This document shows, in pieces, positions 3,621-17,525 of a stretch of DNA of 64,000 nt. Position 1 is the first letter of the stretch, and every line of letters begins with the position of its first letter. Source of the DNA: Synechococcus sp. Nb3U1 (GTDB lineage: Bacteria > Cyanobacteriota > Cyanobacteriia > Thermostichales > Thermostichaceae); contig NZ_JAKFYQ010000001.1 in NCBI RefSeq assembly GCF_021533835.1, positions 778,079-842,078 of the forward strand, written 5' to 3'. Made by a program: the position numbers and the translations under genes. The notes under the pieces are model-generated. The model did not search any database. It was given only the letters and a program-made list of their open reading frames with translations, and had not been told where the DNA came from.

Positions 3621-5186
3621 TCAAAGCCCTGGTAAAACCTGGGCGAACACATCAACGCTGCTCAGGAGCATGTAGGCAAACAGCACGCCACCTACACCCC
3701 CCACCAAGAAGCCCCCAGCAAACTGGCTCCAACCGCCACGGGTACGTAGATTTTCTGGCAACTCATCGGATCCGGCAGAGACCCGAACAGGCTGAGGGGA
3801 TCCGCTCGATTCCGCCATCAGTTGTACCCCTGGCGTTGGGTAGGCCACCGATCCATAGGGAGTATTGGCCACGGCCACCCAGCGGGATTTGGGGAAGGAC
3901 ACCTGCCCGTAGATGGACAGACAAACCGTGAGGATCAGCACCAAGCCAATGGCCCCCAGGGTACCCGCCGTCAAAGCGAGCTCCCAATCCCGCAATGGCC
4001 CCAGCTTGTAAAACGGCCCCAGTAGCAAGTAACCATGGGCCATTCCCACCTCCAAACCCCGCACCATCGGCGATAGCCCTTCCCGGTAAATCGGCAAATT
4101 CTGTAGCAGTAGGAGGGTTAAATCGCTACCATTTACGGGGGTGTTGAAGTTACCCACTTGGGGATCCACCGTTTTCACCCAGCCCCCCTGCTGAAAGTCA
4201 AAACCGGTTGCTGCCGCCCGAGCACGAATGGCATGCCAAATGTGCCCCGCCAAAAACAGGATCCCCAAGACAAAGTGGGCGGTTGCCAACCATGTGCGAC
4301 TGGTAACTACCCCCATCTCATCGGCTCCCAATCCTACTGGCCCATAAAAGGCCACTGGATAGACCGTCTCATTGACGCTGACAAAATAGGCTGCCAGGAT
4401 CCCCATGTAGGCTAAAGCCCCTAGGCTATAGGAAAGATAAGCCTCCCCAGAGTAGATCAGCACCCGCTTGGCCCAAGTAAAAGGCCGCGTCGCCATGTGC
4501 CAAAATCCACCCAGAATGCAGATCAAGCCCACATAAACATGGCCACCCACCACATCTTCTAGGTTGTTCACCCCAGCCATCCCCTGCTCCCCAAGCAGCG
4601 GTGTGAGATAGGCAAAAATGCGAACCGGATTCAGGGTGGGATCCGTAATCAGGCGCACCCGATCCAGAGAAGCATCGTATAGACCACCCCAAAACAGGGC
4701 TTTGGCCACCAGTAACCAAGCCCCTAACCCCAAGAAAACCAGGTGAATGCCAATGATTGTGGTCATTTTGTCGTCATCTTCCCAGTCGTAGCCGAAAAAG
4801 CCAGCAAAGTTCTCCCCTTTGGCCAGCACCTCAGGCCCCAGCAGGGCATGATAAACTCCCCCAGCCCCCAGTACTGCCGAGGCGATTAGGTGCAACACCC
4901 CCACCACAAAAAAGGGATAGGGATCCGTCACCAGCCCTTCCGCCCCAACTCCAATTCCCAACGTGGCCAAGTGGGGCAACAGAATCAGCCCTTGACTGTA
5001 CATCGGTTGAGCGGGATCCCAGTGGGCCAACTCAAACAGGGTCATCCCCCCAGCCCAGAGCAGAATCAACCCAGCATGGGCCACATGAGCACCCAACAAT
5101 TTCCCGGATAAATCTACAAAACGGGCATTGCCAGCAATCCAACCAGGACTGGATACTGCTGGTGGAGAAGACATAGCTGTTGTCAT
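3621..5186 (-). CDS. IsiA-type chlorophyll antenna fused to a PsaL domain
   Basis: This is a 521-residue membrane protein. Residues 1-335 form a six-helix CP43-like (IsiA/Pcb) chlorophyll-binding unit with the family's conserved His-containing helices, for example [10 protein letters not shown] (31-40), [12 protein letters not shown] (144-155) and the VGGHVYVGL region (213-221). Residues about 342-515 are a photosystem I PsaL-like domain: [33 protein letters not shown], then three hydrophobic segments ending near 510. PsaL is the PSI trimerisation subunit, so the fusion should dock antenna chlorophyll directly into or beside PSI under iron stress. IsiA proteins with a C-terminal PsaL domain are known from some cyanobacteria as a chlorophyll-binding subtype. 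It is the third gene of the isiA-isiB-isiA/psaL cluster, 82 nt after isiB. It starts at ATG 5186; an in-frame ATG at 5174 is an alternative. Confidence 0.93.
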
Positions 5187-5268: not shown

Positions 5269-5778
5269 TCATAGGCCAAACGTAGGCTTGAGTTTAGCCG
5301 TCCATTCTTTCACCCGCTTTTCCGTCAGTTCCGATTGATTGTCTTCATCCAAAGCCAACCCTACAAACTGACCATTTACCAATCCCCTCGATTCGTTAAA
5401 CTCATAGCCATCAATGGGCCAAGAACCGACATTTTTCCCGCCTCGCTCAGCGATTTTCTCCGCTAGAATCCCCATCGCATCCTGAAAGTTATCGGGATAG
5501 CCGAACTGATCTCCAACCCCAAAATAGGCTACTGTCTTACCCGAAAAATCTATTTCATCCAAATTTGGAAAAAATCCATCCCAATCAGACTGCAACTCGC
5601 CAATATTCCAGGTAGGGCAGCCGATGATCAGATAGTTGTATTTATCAAAATCTTCAATGCTAGCCTCCGAGATATCGATCAAATCTACATTCTCTTCCCC
5701 CAACTCCTTTTGGATCATCTCAGCAACTGTTTCCGTGTTACCAGTTTGAGTGCCAAAAAACAAACCAACTTTTGCCAT
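5269..5778 (-). CDS. isiB: Long-chain flavodoxin (IsiB)
   Basis: This is a 169-residue FMN electron carrier that replaces ferredoxin between PSI and FNR when iron is scarce. The phosphate-binding loop FFGTQTGNTET lies at the N-terminus. The FMN-contact loops CPTWNIGELQSDW and FGVGDQFGYPDNF, and the long-chain insertion, are present. The upstream GTG at 5781 is less likely than ATG 5778, because flavodoxins begin MAKVGLFFGTQTG and GGAG sits 8 nt before the ATG. It lies between two IsiA-family genes on the same strand, 52 nt after isiA, the classical iron-stress operon order. Confidence 0.97.
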   Translation of the reverse strand: MAKVGLFFGTQTGNTETVAEMIQKELGEENVDLIDISEASIEDFDKYNYLIIGCPTWNIGELQSDWDGFFPNLDEIDFSGKTVAYFGVGDQFGYPDNFQDAMGILAEKIAERGGKNVGSWPIDGYEFNESRGLVNGQFVGLALDEDNQSELTEKRVKEWTAKLKPTFGL

Positions 5779-5830
5779 CACTTCTGCTCCAAAACTGCAA
5801 AGTAAACCTCAACACTCCACTCCAAACTCC

Positions 5831-6874
5831 TCAGGTCATCTGAACAGGCTGAGCAGGTGCATTCAGCTTGCCCGTACGGAAGTTGAACCCGCGTGCCTTG
5901 AGAGCATGAAAAAGATGCCCCTGAAGGAAGAAAAAGGCCAACCAAAAATGGGTGTTGGCAAGCCACACCCGGGAAGTTAGTTCCCCCCCTTGCTCGAATA
6001 AGGGATAGCGATCCAACCCCACCTGCAACAGCGGCCCGTAGAACACCTCTGGATAGACCACCGAATTCACCGAGACAAAATAGGCAGCGATGAATCCCAT
6101 CAAGGCCAAAGCACCCAAGCTGTAGGAAAGATAGGCTTCCCCAGACCCGATAAAGAGCCGCTCTACCCAGCCAAAAGGCTTCGTGGCAATGTGCCAAACT
6201 CCCCCTGCCACCAGCAGTAGCCCCACCCAGATGTGGCCGCCCACCACATCCTCCAGACTGTCTACCCCAGCGATCCAATGCCGCCCCTCTATGCCCAACA
6301 CATGGCCAAAAGGATTGAGATCGGGAGAGATGGTGCGCACTGCCCCCACTCCAGAGTCATACAGCCCCCCGAAGACCATTGCCTTCAGCACCAGTAACCA
6401 GGCCCCCAGCCCCAGCAATACCAGATGGATCCCTAAAATGGTGGTCATCTTGTTTTTGTCTTGCCAGTCGTAGCTGAAGAGAGGGAAGGTCTTGGCCTCC
6501 AACACCGCCGGCCCCCGCAAGGCATGGAAGATGCCCCCGAATCCCAAGAAGGCCGAGCTGATCAAATGCACTGCCCCCACTGCAAAGTAGGTGTCGGTCT
6601 CCAGCACTTCCCCGCCAGATCCCACCCCCAGGCCCAAACTGGCCAGGTGAGGCAAAAGAATCAACCTTTGCTCATACATCGGTTGGCTGGGATCGAAATT
6701 GGCCAACTCGATCAAGGTCATCACCCCGGCCCAGAGAACGATCAGCCCAGCATGGGCCACATGCGCCCCCAACAGCCGACCCGAAAGCTCCGTTAAACGG
6801 GCGTTGCCCGCCCACCACGGGATCCCCTCCTGAGAGCCAGACTCATTACCCTGCACCCGTGTCGTTGCCGTCAT
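5831..6874 (-). CDS. isiA: Iron-stress chlorophyll-binding protein IsiA (CP43')
   Basis: This is a 347-residue six-helix CP43-like antenna protein. It lacks the large lumenal loop of CP43 and forms rings around PSI during iron limitation. Typical stretches are [20 protein letters not shown] at the N-terminus, [16 protein letters not shown] in the middle and [20 protein letters not shown] near the C-terminus, with conserved histidines as chlorophyll ligands. The start is ATG 6874 (M-T-A-T-T-R-V), with GGAG 9 nt upstream; an upstream in-frame TTG is unlikely. First gene of the isi operon. It is divergent from the imelysin gene across 356 bp containing palindromes that look like Fur boxes. Confidence 0.95.
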
Positions 6875-6978
6875 ATTCAGTGACTCCAAACCTTGAGATT
6901 GAGATAAAGGCCAGAACTCCTACCCCAGCAGTGGCCCTGGCCCGATGGACACATCCTTTTGAAACAAGCGAACACTAA

Positions 6979-6993
6979 TGAGATTTAATCTCA
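6979..6993. promoter_or_regulatory. Candidate Fur box 1
   Basis: TGAGATTTAATCTCA is a palindrome apart from its three central bases. It sits 105 nt upstream of the isiA start codon and continues into AATAGCTA. Confidence 0.55.
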
Positions 6994-11393: not shown

Positions 11394-11732
11394 AGGGGTT
11401 GAGCGATGAGAATGTCCGTCGGCCCTACAGTGTAGCTGAAGCTGGCTCCCCCATAGCCACGGTCTCAGAACCAAGCATCAACCGGAATGAGATCAATTTG
11501 AGGAATTAACCAATGTTTAACCCTTGGCTGTAGGTTCCCTTAACGATGTGATGTCAATATAAACCTCGCTTCCATTTACATAGAAGCTTTATCTATCCAT
11601 TTATCCATAGGTCGGGATACATATCCAATTGCTTCTCCAATCACTCGGTGAAAGCGTGAAGTCAGGCAGTCTTCGACCTTTAACCAGCAAAACCCAGCAA
11701 CAGGCAAGCTGCTCGATTCTTTGAGGTGCACC

Positions 11733-14700
11733 GTGAGCAACAGGGCTAATTTTGTTGAGAAACTGGTTCTGATTCCCACTCTGACCTCGGTTTTGGGATT
11801 GGCAATGGGATGCGGCGGGGGATCCCCTTCTACGCTCTCTCTTTCTACGCCTTCGGCTACACAAGCGCCGACGGTATCGGTACCCCCTGCGCCAAGTGGG
11901 ATCCCGACCATCCAGCCTACTCCCAGTCAGCCCAGTATTGAGCCTGTTCCTAGTGCAACCATAGATATGGCTACTCTTTCATTCAATGGAGAGTTAATTA
12001 ATTTTAATATCAGAGATTTCATGGTTGCTTTGGCAAGAATGATCAACCCAAATGCAACGCTTTTGGAGATTCAAGAAATTATCTTTGATATTTTTGGGAT
12101 CAGACTTTCTGAAGAAGATATCACTGCTGCACAACGTGTTCTTATTGCAGCCTATGATTTTAACGGAGATGGAATATCTGGAACCCTCGAAGACTTCGGA
12201 GTTATCTTAGGAATACTCTTTGGCTCAGAAACCTCAGAAAGTATAGAACAAGTTTGCCTAGAGGTTTTACAAATCTCGTGTAACTTATCTCCCGGAATTG
12301 AGCTGCCCCGACTGGATTCTCCAACACCTTCTTTTCCAATACAAAGCCCATCTCCCGGATCTCCGTCCTCATCCCCAACTCCTGGAGGCACACAGCCGGG
12401 GCCAACACCTATCCCTACCTCAACGCCACCTGGAGGTGGGGAAACCGGAGGGTTGCCGCCAGCCAATGGCTTGGTAGTGCAAATTACCAATCGAGATCAG
12501 GTGGATGGCCAGCCTCAAACGACAGGCGCTTCTGTCGCACTCCAGGCAACAGCTACAGATGAACAGGGCAGAGATTGGTCTAGTTTAATTGAGTGGCTAG
12601 ATCATCAGGGAAGACCCATGGGATCCGGCTCTAATTTTACCTACAATAGTGGATCCCGTCCCTTGATGGAAACGATCACAGCTAGAGTGCGGCTTTCTGA
12701 TGGGCGCACAAGTTTTGATCGAGTCAGTTTTACACTGAGCACTCCAGATATACGTGTTGCTCCTAATGTTAAGGTCTTGCCCAATCAGAGAACTCAGATT
12801 TTAGAATTTGATTTTGATCCCGAGGATGAAGAGATAACATCTAATGAATTTTCTCTAGTTCTACTAGATAACGAAAACCTGCCTACACTGAAGCCTAGTG
12901 ACGTGATCGTTGGAGCTGATACACGGATTCCTCCGATGAAGATTAAGACTCTTCAGACAGAGGGAAATGTTTTGAGGATGACGGTTGAGCTAACATCCTT
13001 CTCAAATCTCATCCTAGAAGGATCAGCAAGCTTTAGTCAGCAGGTGGATCTCAGTCTCAATCTTACTCCTCAGAATCGTTCACAACTTGACTTCCGATTG
13101 AATTCTCAAAAACTGGAGTTCAACCCATTATCTTATTTTCTAGTTGATCTCGTTGCCGAAAGTCTTCTCAAAGCAAAATATTCTCAATCTATACCAGAGA
13201 ATGCTCAGTTTGTAAGAACATTAATTGCAACACCAACCAGTCGAGTTGAGTTGGGCCTATTCAAGGGTGAGAGAGGTCGCTTCAAGCGTTCTGGATTAAG
13301 AACTCAGTGGGAGCTTCTAAGTCAAGTTTATGGGGGTTTTAACTTTACGCCAGTAGTGTCTGGAGAATTGGATTTTGGATTGAATCCATTTAGCTCCGAT
13401 TTTGGTCTCAATTATTTTGACTTCACGTTAAAAGGCAAGCAAAATGCACTACTTGGAATTGCTATCGACGGAATTCTAAAATTAGATACAGCTTTTGAGA
13501 TTCAGTTATTCGAAATTCCAGTAAAAACAATACCATTTTTGATTGGCCCAGTTCCATCCTGGATACAGATCAAAGTAGTCTCCAAGTTGGCAACTGAGCC
13601 TTCAGCTTCTGTAAAGGTCAGAGGTGGTCAGCTTGGATTTAATCAGAACTTTGATTATGATCTTAATGTCAATTATAGAGAGGGCAACTGGACTGGCAGA
13701 GCAAGCGCTAACGGAGAATTTAATGAATTTTTCTCAGGCAATCTTCATTTAGAAGGAGCGCTCAAGAATCAACTCAAGATTGAAGCTGGGTTCAAACTTT
13801 ACAGTATCGGCGGCCCCAAGGTAGGCTTTGTTCCTTCCCTTACTCCCAATGTCAGTACTTTTGCAAGAGGTGTTGATATTAACCCTGAATTTCCTTTGGT
13901 AGGAGAAAGCTTTAGTCGTTCTGACAAAATCCCCTTGCTGGCAACAGCAGAGCTCGCACCTACCCTAAATCTTGATGGAAAACTTGCTCTAGAAGTGACT
14001 GCATTCAGTGCGAAAGATTTGGGTTTCTTCAAACAGATAGATTTGGGTCGGTTTGAATTTCCTTTTGTAGAAGAGACTTTATTCACTACACCATTGCCAT
14101 TTAATCGTTCGGCCATAGGGGAGACAACTTTTTGGCTAGGTTGGAAAGATTCTCAGATTGGCTTTATTACAGAAAGTGAACTGGATCAGGTGGTTTGGTT
14201 GAATAGCTGCTTCTACGAGGAAGGTGAAGAAGGTCAAAGACAAATTTCTGCGGTTATCTTTAGCGCCACTGATGAGAACGGTGAGACCCCCCTGGCAGAG
14301 AGCCAGCCTGTTAATATTACCATCACACCGCCCGAGATTCGTTGCCCTGATCTGGATCCAGCGATTGAGTCAATCGATTTTCCTCGTGAAATTGAAGATG
14401 GGCAAGCCTATCCTCTGACGGTTAAAGCCGGCTTACGAGATCGTTCGGGAGATATCATTTTTAGTGAACCCCTCGATGTTGAAATCGTAGTCTTGAGTGA
14501 CAATGGAACAGTTGTGCAGAGTACCGGAACAACAAGTGCTGAGGGCGTTTTCACGACGACTGCTACTCTGAATCAAAACCTCGGAGAGCTAGTGCTAGGA
14601 GTTATTGTTCGTCGCACAACAGAGTTTGATGGAGAGATTATCGTACTCGAAGACCGTAGAACAGTTTCTGCTAGAGATATTTGCGATATCGAACCCAACT

Positions 14701-17525
14701 GCGATCCTCCTTCTGGCGGAGGGATCCCAATTGGTATCGGCGGCTTTGGTAGTGGTGGTAATCGTCCGGGCAGTGGCGGAGCCCCTGGCGGAGGGGGGCC
14801 AAATCCAACCCCGACTCCAAGCCCAACCCCAACTCCTTTACCTGAGTGCGAAGATTGCAGCGACGGTTTTACAATTGGGGATCCCCACTTCAAAACGCTG
14901 GATGGACTGTACTACGCTTTCCATGGACAAGGGGAATTCTGGTTAATCAAGTCTGATGATGACGAGATTCAAGTGCAAACCCGGCAAATCCCCGTCAGAC
15001 CAGGAGCCAATGTCACCCTCAATGCTGCTGTTGCCACTAAGATGGGATCCCAGCGAGTGGGATTTTATGGCCCGCAAATTCGAGTAGATGGATCCCTGGT
15101 TTCGATAAATACTGGAAGTCGATTTGTATTTGACAATGGTGGGGTTTTACTGCGAGAGTCGGGTTCTCGATATCGCTTGGTGTGGCCAACCGGAGAATTT
15201 ATCCGGATCAACATTTTTAATGAACCTTCATTCGCTTCTCAGTCAGTAGACCTTGAGGTTTTCATTTCTTCAGCTCGACTGGGTCGAATATCAGGCTTGC
15301 TAGGTAACTTTGATCGCAATCGTGCTAATGACATTACCACAAGAACTGGACAAACCCTGGATCCTCCAGTGGCTTTGGGGGATTTGTACAATATTTTCGG
15401 CGAAAGTTGGCGAATTAACCAAAGTGAATCTTTGTTTGACTATGAGCCTGACCAGACTACTGGCACCTTTGTAGGCGCTCCTACCGAATTTGTTACCTCA
15501 GAAACCCTAGATCCGGCAGATCGACAGGCAGCAGAAACCTTCTGTCTAGGTCGAGGTATTACAGAAGCTGCCCTGCTAGAAGCCTGCATTGTGGACGTAG
15601 CTATTGGCGGTGAAGCCTTTGCGGAGGTATTCACCCAGGTCAGCCCACCTGAAGAGTCACTGGAGCTAGCAGATTCGCCCACGGTTGTCTTGAGTGTACC
15701 GGAGCAAGTCTCTCTGGGGGATCCTGTTACATTGGGCTTATCTGCCACTATTCCTGGTGGATTGCAATCCATTCGGTTGACAATCAATGGTCTTGGGTTA
15801 ACTTTCGACCAAATTTTACCTCAGTCGATAACAGGATGTGCGATAGGTGCTCGCACTTGTCAGTTTACCTATCCTTTCCCCTCCAACCTCTTGCCAGGAA
15901 CCTACAGCTATAGCTTGACTTTGTCAGATCAATCCAACCAGAGTGTTACCGAAACCGGAACTGTAGAGGTCATCGCGCAAGATCAACCTCTTGCCCTAGA
16001 TCCGGGTCTTGAGGCGGCCATTCGGGATGCCATTAACAAGCTCACAGGTTCTCTTTCTCCATCAGATCTGCTGGACTTAGTAGAACTTAATGCTAAGAAC
16101 CGTGGGATCCAAACTCTGCAAGGGCTACCGGATCTTCCCAATTTGGAATCTCTGGATGTTTCAGATAACGCTTTGCAGAACCTGAATGGATTGCCACCAA
16201 CCTTGCCTGAGCTGCGTGCTCTTTCACTTGGAGGAAATCAGCTCAATGATCTCAGAGGTCTGCCCAGCGATCTATCCAAGCTTGAGTTTTTAGGAGTTGG
16301 GAATGGCACATTACGCAGTCTAGTAGGTCTACCCGATGCTTTGCCGAACTTGAAAGTGCTTTCCGTCAATGGAACTGGATTAACCTCTCTAGAGGGCTTG
16401 CCCAGTCGTTTGCCTTCTCTTGAGTTGTTGAGCCTTTGGCCGAATGAACTTCGGTCTCTAGAAGGTTTACCTACCGATCTTCCCAGTATTCAAAATATCA
16501 ATATCAGCTCTAATCTCTTAACAGATATTGATCCCATTCCCAATTTGTACGGAAATGGGCTTAACTCTGGAGATGCTTTGGATGTGAGCTTTAATTGCTT
16601 GACTCAAAGCTATTTAGAGAGCTTGTCTTCTATCTTTCTAGGAGTTGAAATTAGATTGACTCCCCAGAAATCAGGCCCTGAATGTCCAACATCTGATTTG
16701 GTGGATATAGATGGAATAGATCCTGGCTTGAGCGCTGCTATTCGTGCGGCAGTCGGCAAACCTGCCATTACAGCATCTGACCTGGCTTCTATAACGGAGC
16801 TAGATGCCTCCTATCGTCAGATTCGCACTCTTGAAGGTATGCCTGCTATGCCTAACCTGCAGACTTTAGATCTAGAAGGCAATGAGTTAACCAGTCTTGA
16901 AGGACTACCTGATCTACCAGAACTACAGAAGCTTTTCCTAACTTACAATAGCCTGATCGATTTGAGAGGTTATCCTAACTTGCCCAAGTTACAGGAACTA
17001 GACCTAGGAGCCAACTCTATAGGTTCCCTTGCTGGATTTAATGCTAGTAATGCAGCTAGCTTTAGGATCAATCTCAGCTGTGCAGTAGGCCCTGATGGAA
17101 TTAACCTACTTGATCTCCCTCCGAATCTGACTGAGTTGTACTTGGGCTTCAACCTGAATCGTGTCGGGTATCGCTACAACGATCTCACTCAAATTCCAGC
17201 GATGCCAAGTAATTTGGCCAAACTACAAGTTTTAATTCTCAACCACAATACACTATCGAATTTGGAAGGACTACCTGAGAATCTCTCGAATCTGCGGGTT
17301 TTAGATGTATCCCGTAATCCATTGACCAGCCTATCAGGCTTGCCCCCGGTCAGTGCCCTGCCGAATTTGAGTCGGTTTTATTCCTACTCAACCCCTGATC
17401 TTAGCGCTTCTCTTAGCCCAGAAGAAATTGACTTGGTCGAACAGGAATTGTGGGATTATCGTGAAGTAGCTGGCCAAAGTGGTTATTCTATCGGTGGATG
17501 TAGTGCTCGAGGTCACAACCCTTAG
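11733..17525 (+). CDS. Giant lipoprotein with von Willebrand type-D domain and two LRR blocks
   Basis: This is a surface-type protein of about 1930 residues. GTG 11733 has GAGG 6 nt upstream and is preferred over TTG 11721. A hydrophobic signal ends in the lipobox LAMGC (Cys27). Next come a Ser/Pro/Thr-rich stretch, an EF-hand/dockerin-like loop DFNGDGISG (about residue 141), a Pro-rich linker (about 200-245) and an Ig-like segment (about 260-345). A large region with many short beta-like repeats spans about 345-830, followed by further Ig-like parts and a Gly/Pro linker (about 995-1040). A VWD domain starting GDPHFKTLDG covers about 1045-1230, with LLGNFDRNRANDI as its conserved core. Two internalin-like LRR blocks (about 1422-1650 and 1660-1875) each open with DPGLxAAIR. 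VWD plus LRR suggests adhesion or protein binding at the cell surface. The segment at 12.7-14.3 kb is AT-rich and has no GGATCC, unlike its surroundings. Confidence 0.85.
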   Translation: MSNRANFVEKLVLIPTLTSVLGLAMGCGGGSPSTLSLSTPSATQAPTVSVPPAPSGIPTIQPTPSQPSIEPVPSATIDMATLSFNGELINFNIRDFMVALARMINPNATLLEIQEIIFDIFGIRLSEEDITAAQRVLIAAYDFNGDGISGTLEDFGVILGILFGSETSESIEQVCLEVLQISCNLSPGIELPRLDSPTPSFPIQSPSPGSPSSSPTPGGTQPGPTPIPTSTPPGGGETGGLPPANGLVVQITNRDQVDGQPQTTGASVALQATATDEQGRDWSSLIEWLDHQGRPMGSGSNFTYNSGSRPLMETITARVRLSDGRTSFDRVSFTLSTPDIRVAPNVKVLPNQRTQILEFDFDPEDEEITSNEFSLVLLDNENLPTLKPSDVIVGADTRIPPMKIKTLQTEGNVLRMTVELTSFSNLILEGSASFSQQVDLSLNLTPQNRSQLDFRLNSQKLEFNPLSYFLVDLVAESLLKAKYSQSIPENAQFVRTLIATPTSRVELGLFKGERGRFKRSGLRTQWELLSQVYGGFNFTPVVSGELDFGLNPFSSDFGLNYFDFTLKGKQNALLGIAIDGILKLDTAFEIQLFEIPVKTIPFLIGPVPSWIQIKVVSKLATEPSASVKVRGGQLGFNQNFDYDLNVNYREGNWTGRASANGEFNEFFSGNLHLEGALKNQLKIEAGFKLYSIGGPKVGFVPSLTPNVSTFARGVDINPEFPLVGESFSRSDKIPLLATAELAPTLNLDGKLALEVTAFSAKDLGFFKQIDLGRFEFPFVEETLFTTPLPFNRSAIGETTFWLGWKDSQIGFITESELDQVVWLNSCFYEEGEEGQRQISAVIFSATDENGETPLAESQPVNITITPPEIRCPDLDPAIESIDFPREIEDGQAYPLTVKAGLRDRSGDIIFSEPLDVEIVVLSDNGTVVQSTGTTSAEGVFTTTATLNQNLGELVLGVIVRRTTEFDGEIIVLEDRRTVSARDICDIEPNCDPPSGGGIPIGIGGFGSGGNRPGSGGAPGGGGPNPTPTPSPTPTPLPECEDCSDGFTIGDPHFKTLDGLYYAFHGQGEFWLIKSDDDEIQVQTRQIPVRPGANVTLNAAVATKMGSQRVGFYGPQIRVDGSLVSINTGSRFVFDNGGVLLRESGSRYRLVWPTGEFIRINIFNEPSFASQSVDLEVFISSARLGRISGLLGNFDRNRANDITTRTGQTLDPPVALGDLYNIFGESWRINQSESLFDYEPDQTTGTFVGAPTEFVTSETLDPADRQAAETFCLGRGITEAALLEACIVDVAIGGEAFAEVFTQVSPPEESLELADSPTVVLSVPEQVSLGDPVTLGLSATIPGGLQSIRLTINGLGLTFDQILPQSITGCAIGARTCQFTYPFPSNLLPGTYSYSLTLSDQSNQSVTETGTVEVIAQDQPLALDPGLEAAIRDAINKLTGSLSPSDLLDLVELNAKNRGIQTLQGLPDLPNLESLDVSDNALQNLNGLPPTLPELRALSLGGNQLNDLRGLPSDLSKLEFLGVGNGTLRSLVGLPDALPNLKVLSVNGTGLTSLEGLPSRLPSLELLSLWPNELRSLEGLPTDLPSIQNINISSNLLTDIDPIPNLYGNGLNSGDALDVSFNCLTQSYLESLSSIFLGVEIRLTPQKSGPECPTSDLVDIDGIDPGLSAAIRAAVGKPAITASDLASITELDASYRQIRTLEGMPAMPNLQTLDLEGNELTSLEGLPDLPELQKLFLTYNSLIDLRGYPNLPKLQELDLGANSIGSLAGFNASNAASFRINLSCAVGPDGINLLDLPPNLTELYLGFNLNRVGYRYNDLTQIPAMPSNLAKLQVLILNHNTLSNLEGLPENLSNLRVLDVSRNPLTSLSGLPPVSALPNLSRFYSYSTPDLSASLSPEEIDLVEQELWDYREVAGQSGYSIGGCSARGHNP

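Follow-up and report, generated by a model that had tools for sequence, protein, structure and literature searches.

What does a protein that carries an IsiA antenna and a PsaL domain in a single chain do to photosystem I (PSI) in a cyanobacterium that also has ordinary isiA and psaL genes? The question is raised by a gene of Synechococcus sp. Nb3U1 lying in a window of 64,000 nucleotides, by which we mean the whole stretch of DNA analysed here (contig NZ_JAKFYQ010000001.1). Our best explanation as a whole, to which we assign a probability of roughly 0.88, is that the gene belongs to a known fusion family and that its product would be made together with its neighbours under iron limitation, occupy the PsaL site and yield a monomeric PSI with an arc of IsiA attached. 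The gene and its parts are as follows.

3621 to 5186, minus strand: IsiA-PsaL fusion gene (CBPV or IsiA2 type), 521 aa; best solved homologue 7y3f chain 1
4182 to 5144, minus strand: IsiA/CP43-type antenna domain, aa ~15-335, with six predicted transmembrane helices
4134 to 4193, minus strand: linker between antenna and PsaL, aa ~332-351, from the alignment with 7y3f chain 1
3651 to 4169, minus strand: PsaL domain, aa 340-512, with three predicted transmembrane helices
3768 to 3887, minus strand: insert of ~40 residues, aa 434-473, between PsaL helices 2 and 3, from the alignment; a low-confidence loop in the model

The reading frame runs from an ATG at 5186 to 3621 with no internal stop. In Pfam searches its N-terminal half matches PF00421, the PSII/CP43 family, over aa 15-286 (E=8.6e-76) with a second stretch beyond, and its C-terminal half matches PF02605, PsaL, over aa 340-512 (E=2.7e-57). 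Because the latter match covers positions 7-149 of the 150 in the profile and scores 193 bits, where the cut-off is 25 bits, the PsaL domain is complete and is not a chance match, bearing out the initial annotation of this DNA, which had described a complete PsaL-like domain. The same annotation called the antenna CP43-like; the PF00421 match agrees with this, but the description can be refined, since PSII-CP43 sequences align to the fusion in two pieces (aa ~13-293 and ~282-330), whereas IsiA chains align in one, and the antenna is thus of the IsiA type without the large E-loop of CP43. A six-helix IsiA-type antenna lacking the E-loop is therefore followed, in frame, by a complete C-terminal PsaL. 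Among PDB sequences the top match is 7y3f chain 1, which spans both domains (E=1.6e-200). The AlphaFold model contains nine long helices, six of them in the antenna half; with its mean pLDDT of 61.8, we rely on it to count helices and to match the fold, and not for geometry; Foldseek, given this model, also ranks 7y3f chain 1 first (E=2e-37, 496 columns, 61% identity). At the level of sequence, the domain order, the linker, the conserved PsaL fold and the family membership can be regarded as established.

A search of 390 genomes of the class returned 52 matches to the fusion with E<=1e-130; in 49 of them the alignment extends into the PsaL domain. Four congeneric genomes contain full-length homologues with 84-94% identity, and many families have related fusions, which refutes a sequencing or assembly artefact linking two genes, a reading that retains practically no probability. 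The record of Synechococcus sp. M44_DOE_062 matches the fusion at 84% identity. In the tree of IsiA halves, 43 fusions form one clade with 98% SH-aLRT support, and the window protein groups with these other fusions and not with single-domain IsiA or CP43. Six isiA genes without PsaL fall inside the clade and may represent losses of the PsaL part. The tree of PsaL halves has weak deep forks but clusters the fusion PsaL domains strongly, with three changes needed, and a single ancient fusion event would be the simplest reading of the two trees. Purifying selection acts on both domains, with dN/dS of ~0.02-0.11 per domain. The window protein is thus, as judged from these comparisons, real and well conserved, and it belongs to the IsiA-PsaL fusion family already known. 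That such fusions are known from some cyanobacteria had been noted from the outset, and this is correct: PsbC-PsaL hybrids (CBPV) were listed in nine other cyanobacteria, including Synechococcus JA-3-3Ab and JA-2-3B'a (PMC3610870, 2013), and IsiA2 of Anabaena sp. PCC 7120 is of the same kind (PMC9938196).

Two observations concern individual genomes. In L141 (genome G340) and L012 (Oscillatoria sp. SIO1A7), the PsaL domains group with stand-alone PsaL, as a pair with 98% support and weak placement, while their IsiA halves group with the fusions; a second capture or a replacement of the PsaL domain is possible there. One congeneric genome, G002, which is 95% complete, has neither the fusion nor a close isiA match, and the isi cluster is either lost or absent from the assembly.

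When and with what the fusion is produced is addressed by its surroundings, which contain three further features.

5269 to 5781, minus strand: isiB, flavodoxin (Pfam Flavodoxin_1, E=2.8e-32)
5831 to 6874, minus strand: isiA, ordinary IsiA antenna, 347 aa from the ATG at 6874 (Pfam PSII, E=2e-72)
6979 to 6993, no strand assigned: inverted repeat TGAGATTTAATCTCA upstream of isiA, the sole TGAGA-N5-TCTCA match in the 64-kb window

The fusion was originally described as the third gene of an isi cluster, and the coordinates agree: isiA (6874 or 6889 to 5831), isiB (5781 to 5269) and the fusion (5186 to 3621) follow one another on the minus strand, separated by ~50 and ~82 bases, the alternative reflecting a TTG at 6889 as a possible upstream start of isiA. 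This isiA falls among isiA genes in the tree. The inverted repeat lies ~105 bases 5' of the isiA ATG; the exact pattern is retained in three of four congeneric loci and degraded in L123, and we consider the repeat a candidate Fur-type operator. Scans for promoters and terminators gave nothing beyond chance, including between the cluster genes, where no terminator exceeded chance. Across the cyanobacterial genomes compared, fusion genes usually adjoin isiA and often isiB too: isiB is close by on the same strand in 23 of the 34 fusion loci fetched from the 390 genomes, and all four congeners having the fusion carry it clustered with isiA and isiB. Comparable arrangements have been reported: in Nodularia the fusion lies together with isiA and isiB, Anabaena and Fischerella have similar clusters of isiA-family genes (PMC3610870), and isiA adjoins isiB in the Synechococcus JA group (PMC4477158). 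Elsewhere in the window, positions 11721-17525 hold a 1934-aa frame with proline/threonine-rich stretches and, by eye, segments resembling leucine-rich repeats and a region resembling von Willebrand type D; it looks like a secreted or surface protein.

A fusion of this kind need not be an iron-stress protein and might instead be used constitutively or in other light conditions, as suggested by Chro_2988 of Chroococcidiopsis thermalis, whose level is high in white light and ~80-fold lower under far-red illumination (PMC8827656). For the window gene, however, such a role is very unlikely, given that it immediately follows isiA and isiB, that the spacers are short and hold no terminator beyond chance, that a conserved inverted repeat precedes isiA, and that the Anabaena homologue is expressed under iron deficiency (PMC9938196).

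Under the preferred reading, iron limitation would most likely lead to production of the fusion along with IsiA and flavodoxin. The PsaL-like domain would then take the PsaL site in a PSI core without PsaL, which would place the IsiA domain on the PsaA side, where it would block PSI oligomerisation, pass excitation energy to PSI and nucleate an arc of more IsiA subunits. The model for this is the cryo-EM structure of the Anabaena PSI-IsiA complex (2023), in which PsaL is missing, the C-terminal domain of IsiA2 sits in its site, PSI is a monomer and six IsiAs are present (PMC9938196). In the proposal of its authors, the N-terminal IsiA domain keeps PSI from oligomerising, and IsiA2 is in competition with PsaL (PMC9938196). 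The initial annotation had suggested that the fusion could bring an IsiA unit into PSI or take the place of PsaL, with a change of oligomeric state, as is indeed seen in the Anabaena homologue; its further view that the place of the gene in the operon and the structural role of the protein still await study is out of date, the clustering having been published in PMC3610870 and the structure in PMC9938196. By analogy with Anabaena, for which alone there is experimental proof of both, PsaL replacement and a monomeric PSI would be expected in Synechococcus sp. Nb3U1.

It has also been hypothesised, for Chro_2988 of C. thermalis, that a fusion docks beside an existing PsaL through its own PsaL domain and so serves as an add-on antenna without replacing PsaL (PMC8827656), and the PsaL domain of the window protein does retain residues that are altered in Anabaena IsiA2. 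The Anabaena structure, on the other hand, is one of replacement, with the linker traced continuously between the two domains as a loop (L325-T343; PMC9938196), and the linker of the window protein is nearly the same length. We thus regard add-on docking as highly improbable and replacement of PsaL as the better reading.

Whether the genome holds a separate psaL, which the initial annotation had left to be checked, bears directly on this. Two stand-alone psaL genes are present, at G000:C1:1580219-1580641 on the minus strand (L002) and G000:C3:32072-32476 on the plus strand (L003), together with only one psaA and one psaB. The fusion as a stand-in for a missing psaL is thereby ruled out; it is an extra, competing form of PsaL and not the sole copy, and there is room for the competition between PsaL and fusion proposed for Anabaena. 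The psaL on C1 has a trimer-type C-terminal tail, that on C3 has none and adjoins psaF, and the congeners likewise carry two psaL genes. We also considered the C3 gene as part of a far-red (FaRLiP) PSI set, which is excluded by the single psaA and psaB and by the location of the gene beside psaF and near a tsaD-like gene.

The genome contains two further IsiA-family genes beyond those of the window. At G000:C1:1502544-1503539 there is a 484-aa IsiA-family frame whose additional C-terminal part is not PsaL; it may be the IsiX of low-light Synechococcus, and it was absent among the PsaL matches of the genome search. At G000:C1:1044189-1045151 (L160), an IsiA-family gene is followed by an alpha/beta-hydrolase-like frame, and such a hydrolase has been reported beside flavodoxin/isiA genes in Nodularia.

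The insert of ~40 residues is the only feature of the fusion that we did not find described in the literature cited here on such proteins. All five sequences of the genus have it, and its beginning is also seen in the broken sequence of a sister genus (L089); the loops of other fusions are shorter. Sequences of the genus share 80-88% identity over the insert, at a dN/dS of ~0.08-0.18 with some dS values saturated, and it is thus constrained, though less so than most of the remaining protein. Searched alone against PDB sequences, it gave no significant match (best E=0.27). CP43-type antennae begin and finish on the cytoplasmic side and PsaL begins there, so the insert should face the cytoplasm. 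Conceivably it provides a further surface on which flavodoxin, PsaD/PsaC or part of a phycobilisome could dock, or makes PSI assembly differ from that of the Anabaena complex, a suggestion that we consider unlikely.

The window protein can be compared with several known systems. First of all, Anabaena IsiA2 (7y3f chain 1; Nagao et al. 2023, PMC9938196) shares with it an IsiA antenna, a C-terminal PsaL-like domain, nine helices and clustered isiA genes. The alignment shows that two traits of IsiA2-type proteins are common to both: Anabaena H34 corresponds to H37 of the window protein, a histidine in each, and the same two chlorophyll-ligand positions carry non-ligand residues, I144 and S309 in Anabaena and I147 and A313 in the window protein. 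Second, W426, N451 and W454, named as distinctive of the PsaL-like domain of Anabaena IsiA2, are not common to the window protein, which has S430, A490 and F493, and the latter therefore belongs to the wider family without being an IsiA2 in the narrow sense of the Anabaena protein. It also differs in its insert between PsaL helices 2 and 3 and in a longer C-terminal tail, of ~9 residues, that resembles the tail of ordinary PsaL; together with the differing residues, these features mean that its contacts may not be those of Anabaena IsiA2, though its place in the family stands. Third, the window, the four congeners with the fusion and L138 have the gene order isiA-isiB-fusion, whereas the usual order is isiA-fusion-isiB; L124 and L125, two of the congeneric loci, match the window in the three-gene cluster as well as in the insert.

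Closer in descent, the hybrids of Synechococcus JA-3-3Ab and JA-2-3B'a apparently belong to the same genus but to different species, with 83-84% protein identity to the window protein, and antenna addition to PSI monomers was already proposed for such hybrids (PMC3610870, 2013). Both the fusion type and its mechanism in a homologue are thus known, the former also from what is apparently the same genus, and what this analysis contributes is a further species, a count of how widely the fusion is spread and a genus-specific insert. IsiA4 of Leptolyngbya sp. JSC-1, according to the account of Shen et al. 2016 given in PMC9938196, is expressed in iron-starved cells and linked to PSI supercomplexes; like the window protein, it is described as a member of the IsiA family that carries a PsaL-like domain. 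IsiX of low-light Synechococcus (PMC4477158) shares the IsiA family, a C-terminal extension and the genus group, but its extension is of ~100 aa with about one extra helix, is not described as PsaL, and belongs to another cluster. Across these systems, the fusion would explain how PSI switches from oligomers to antenna-equipped monomers under iron shortage in some cyanobacteria, as is structurally supported for Anabaena.
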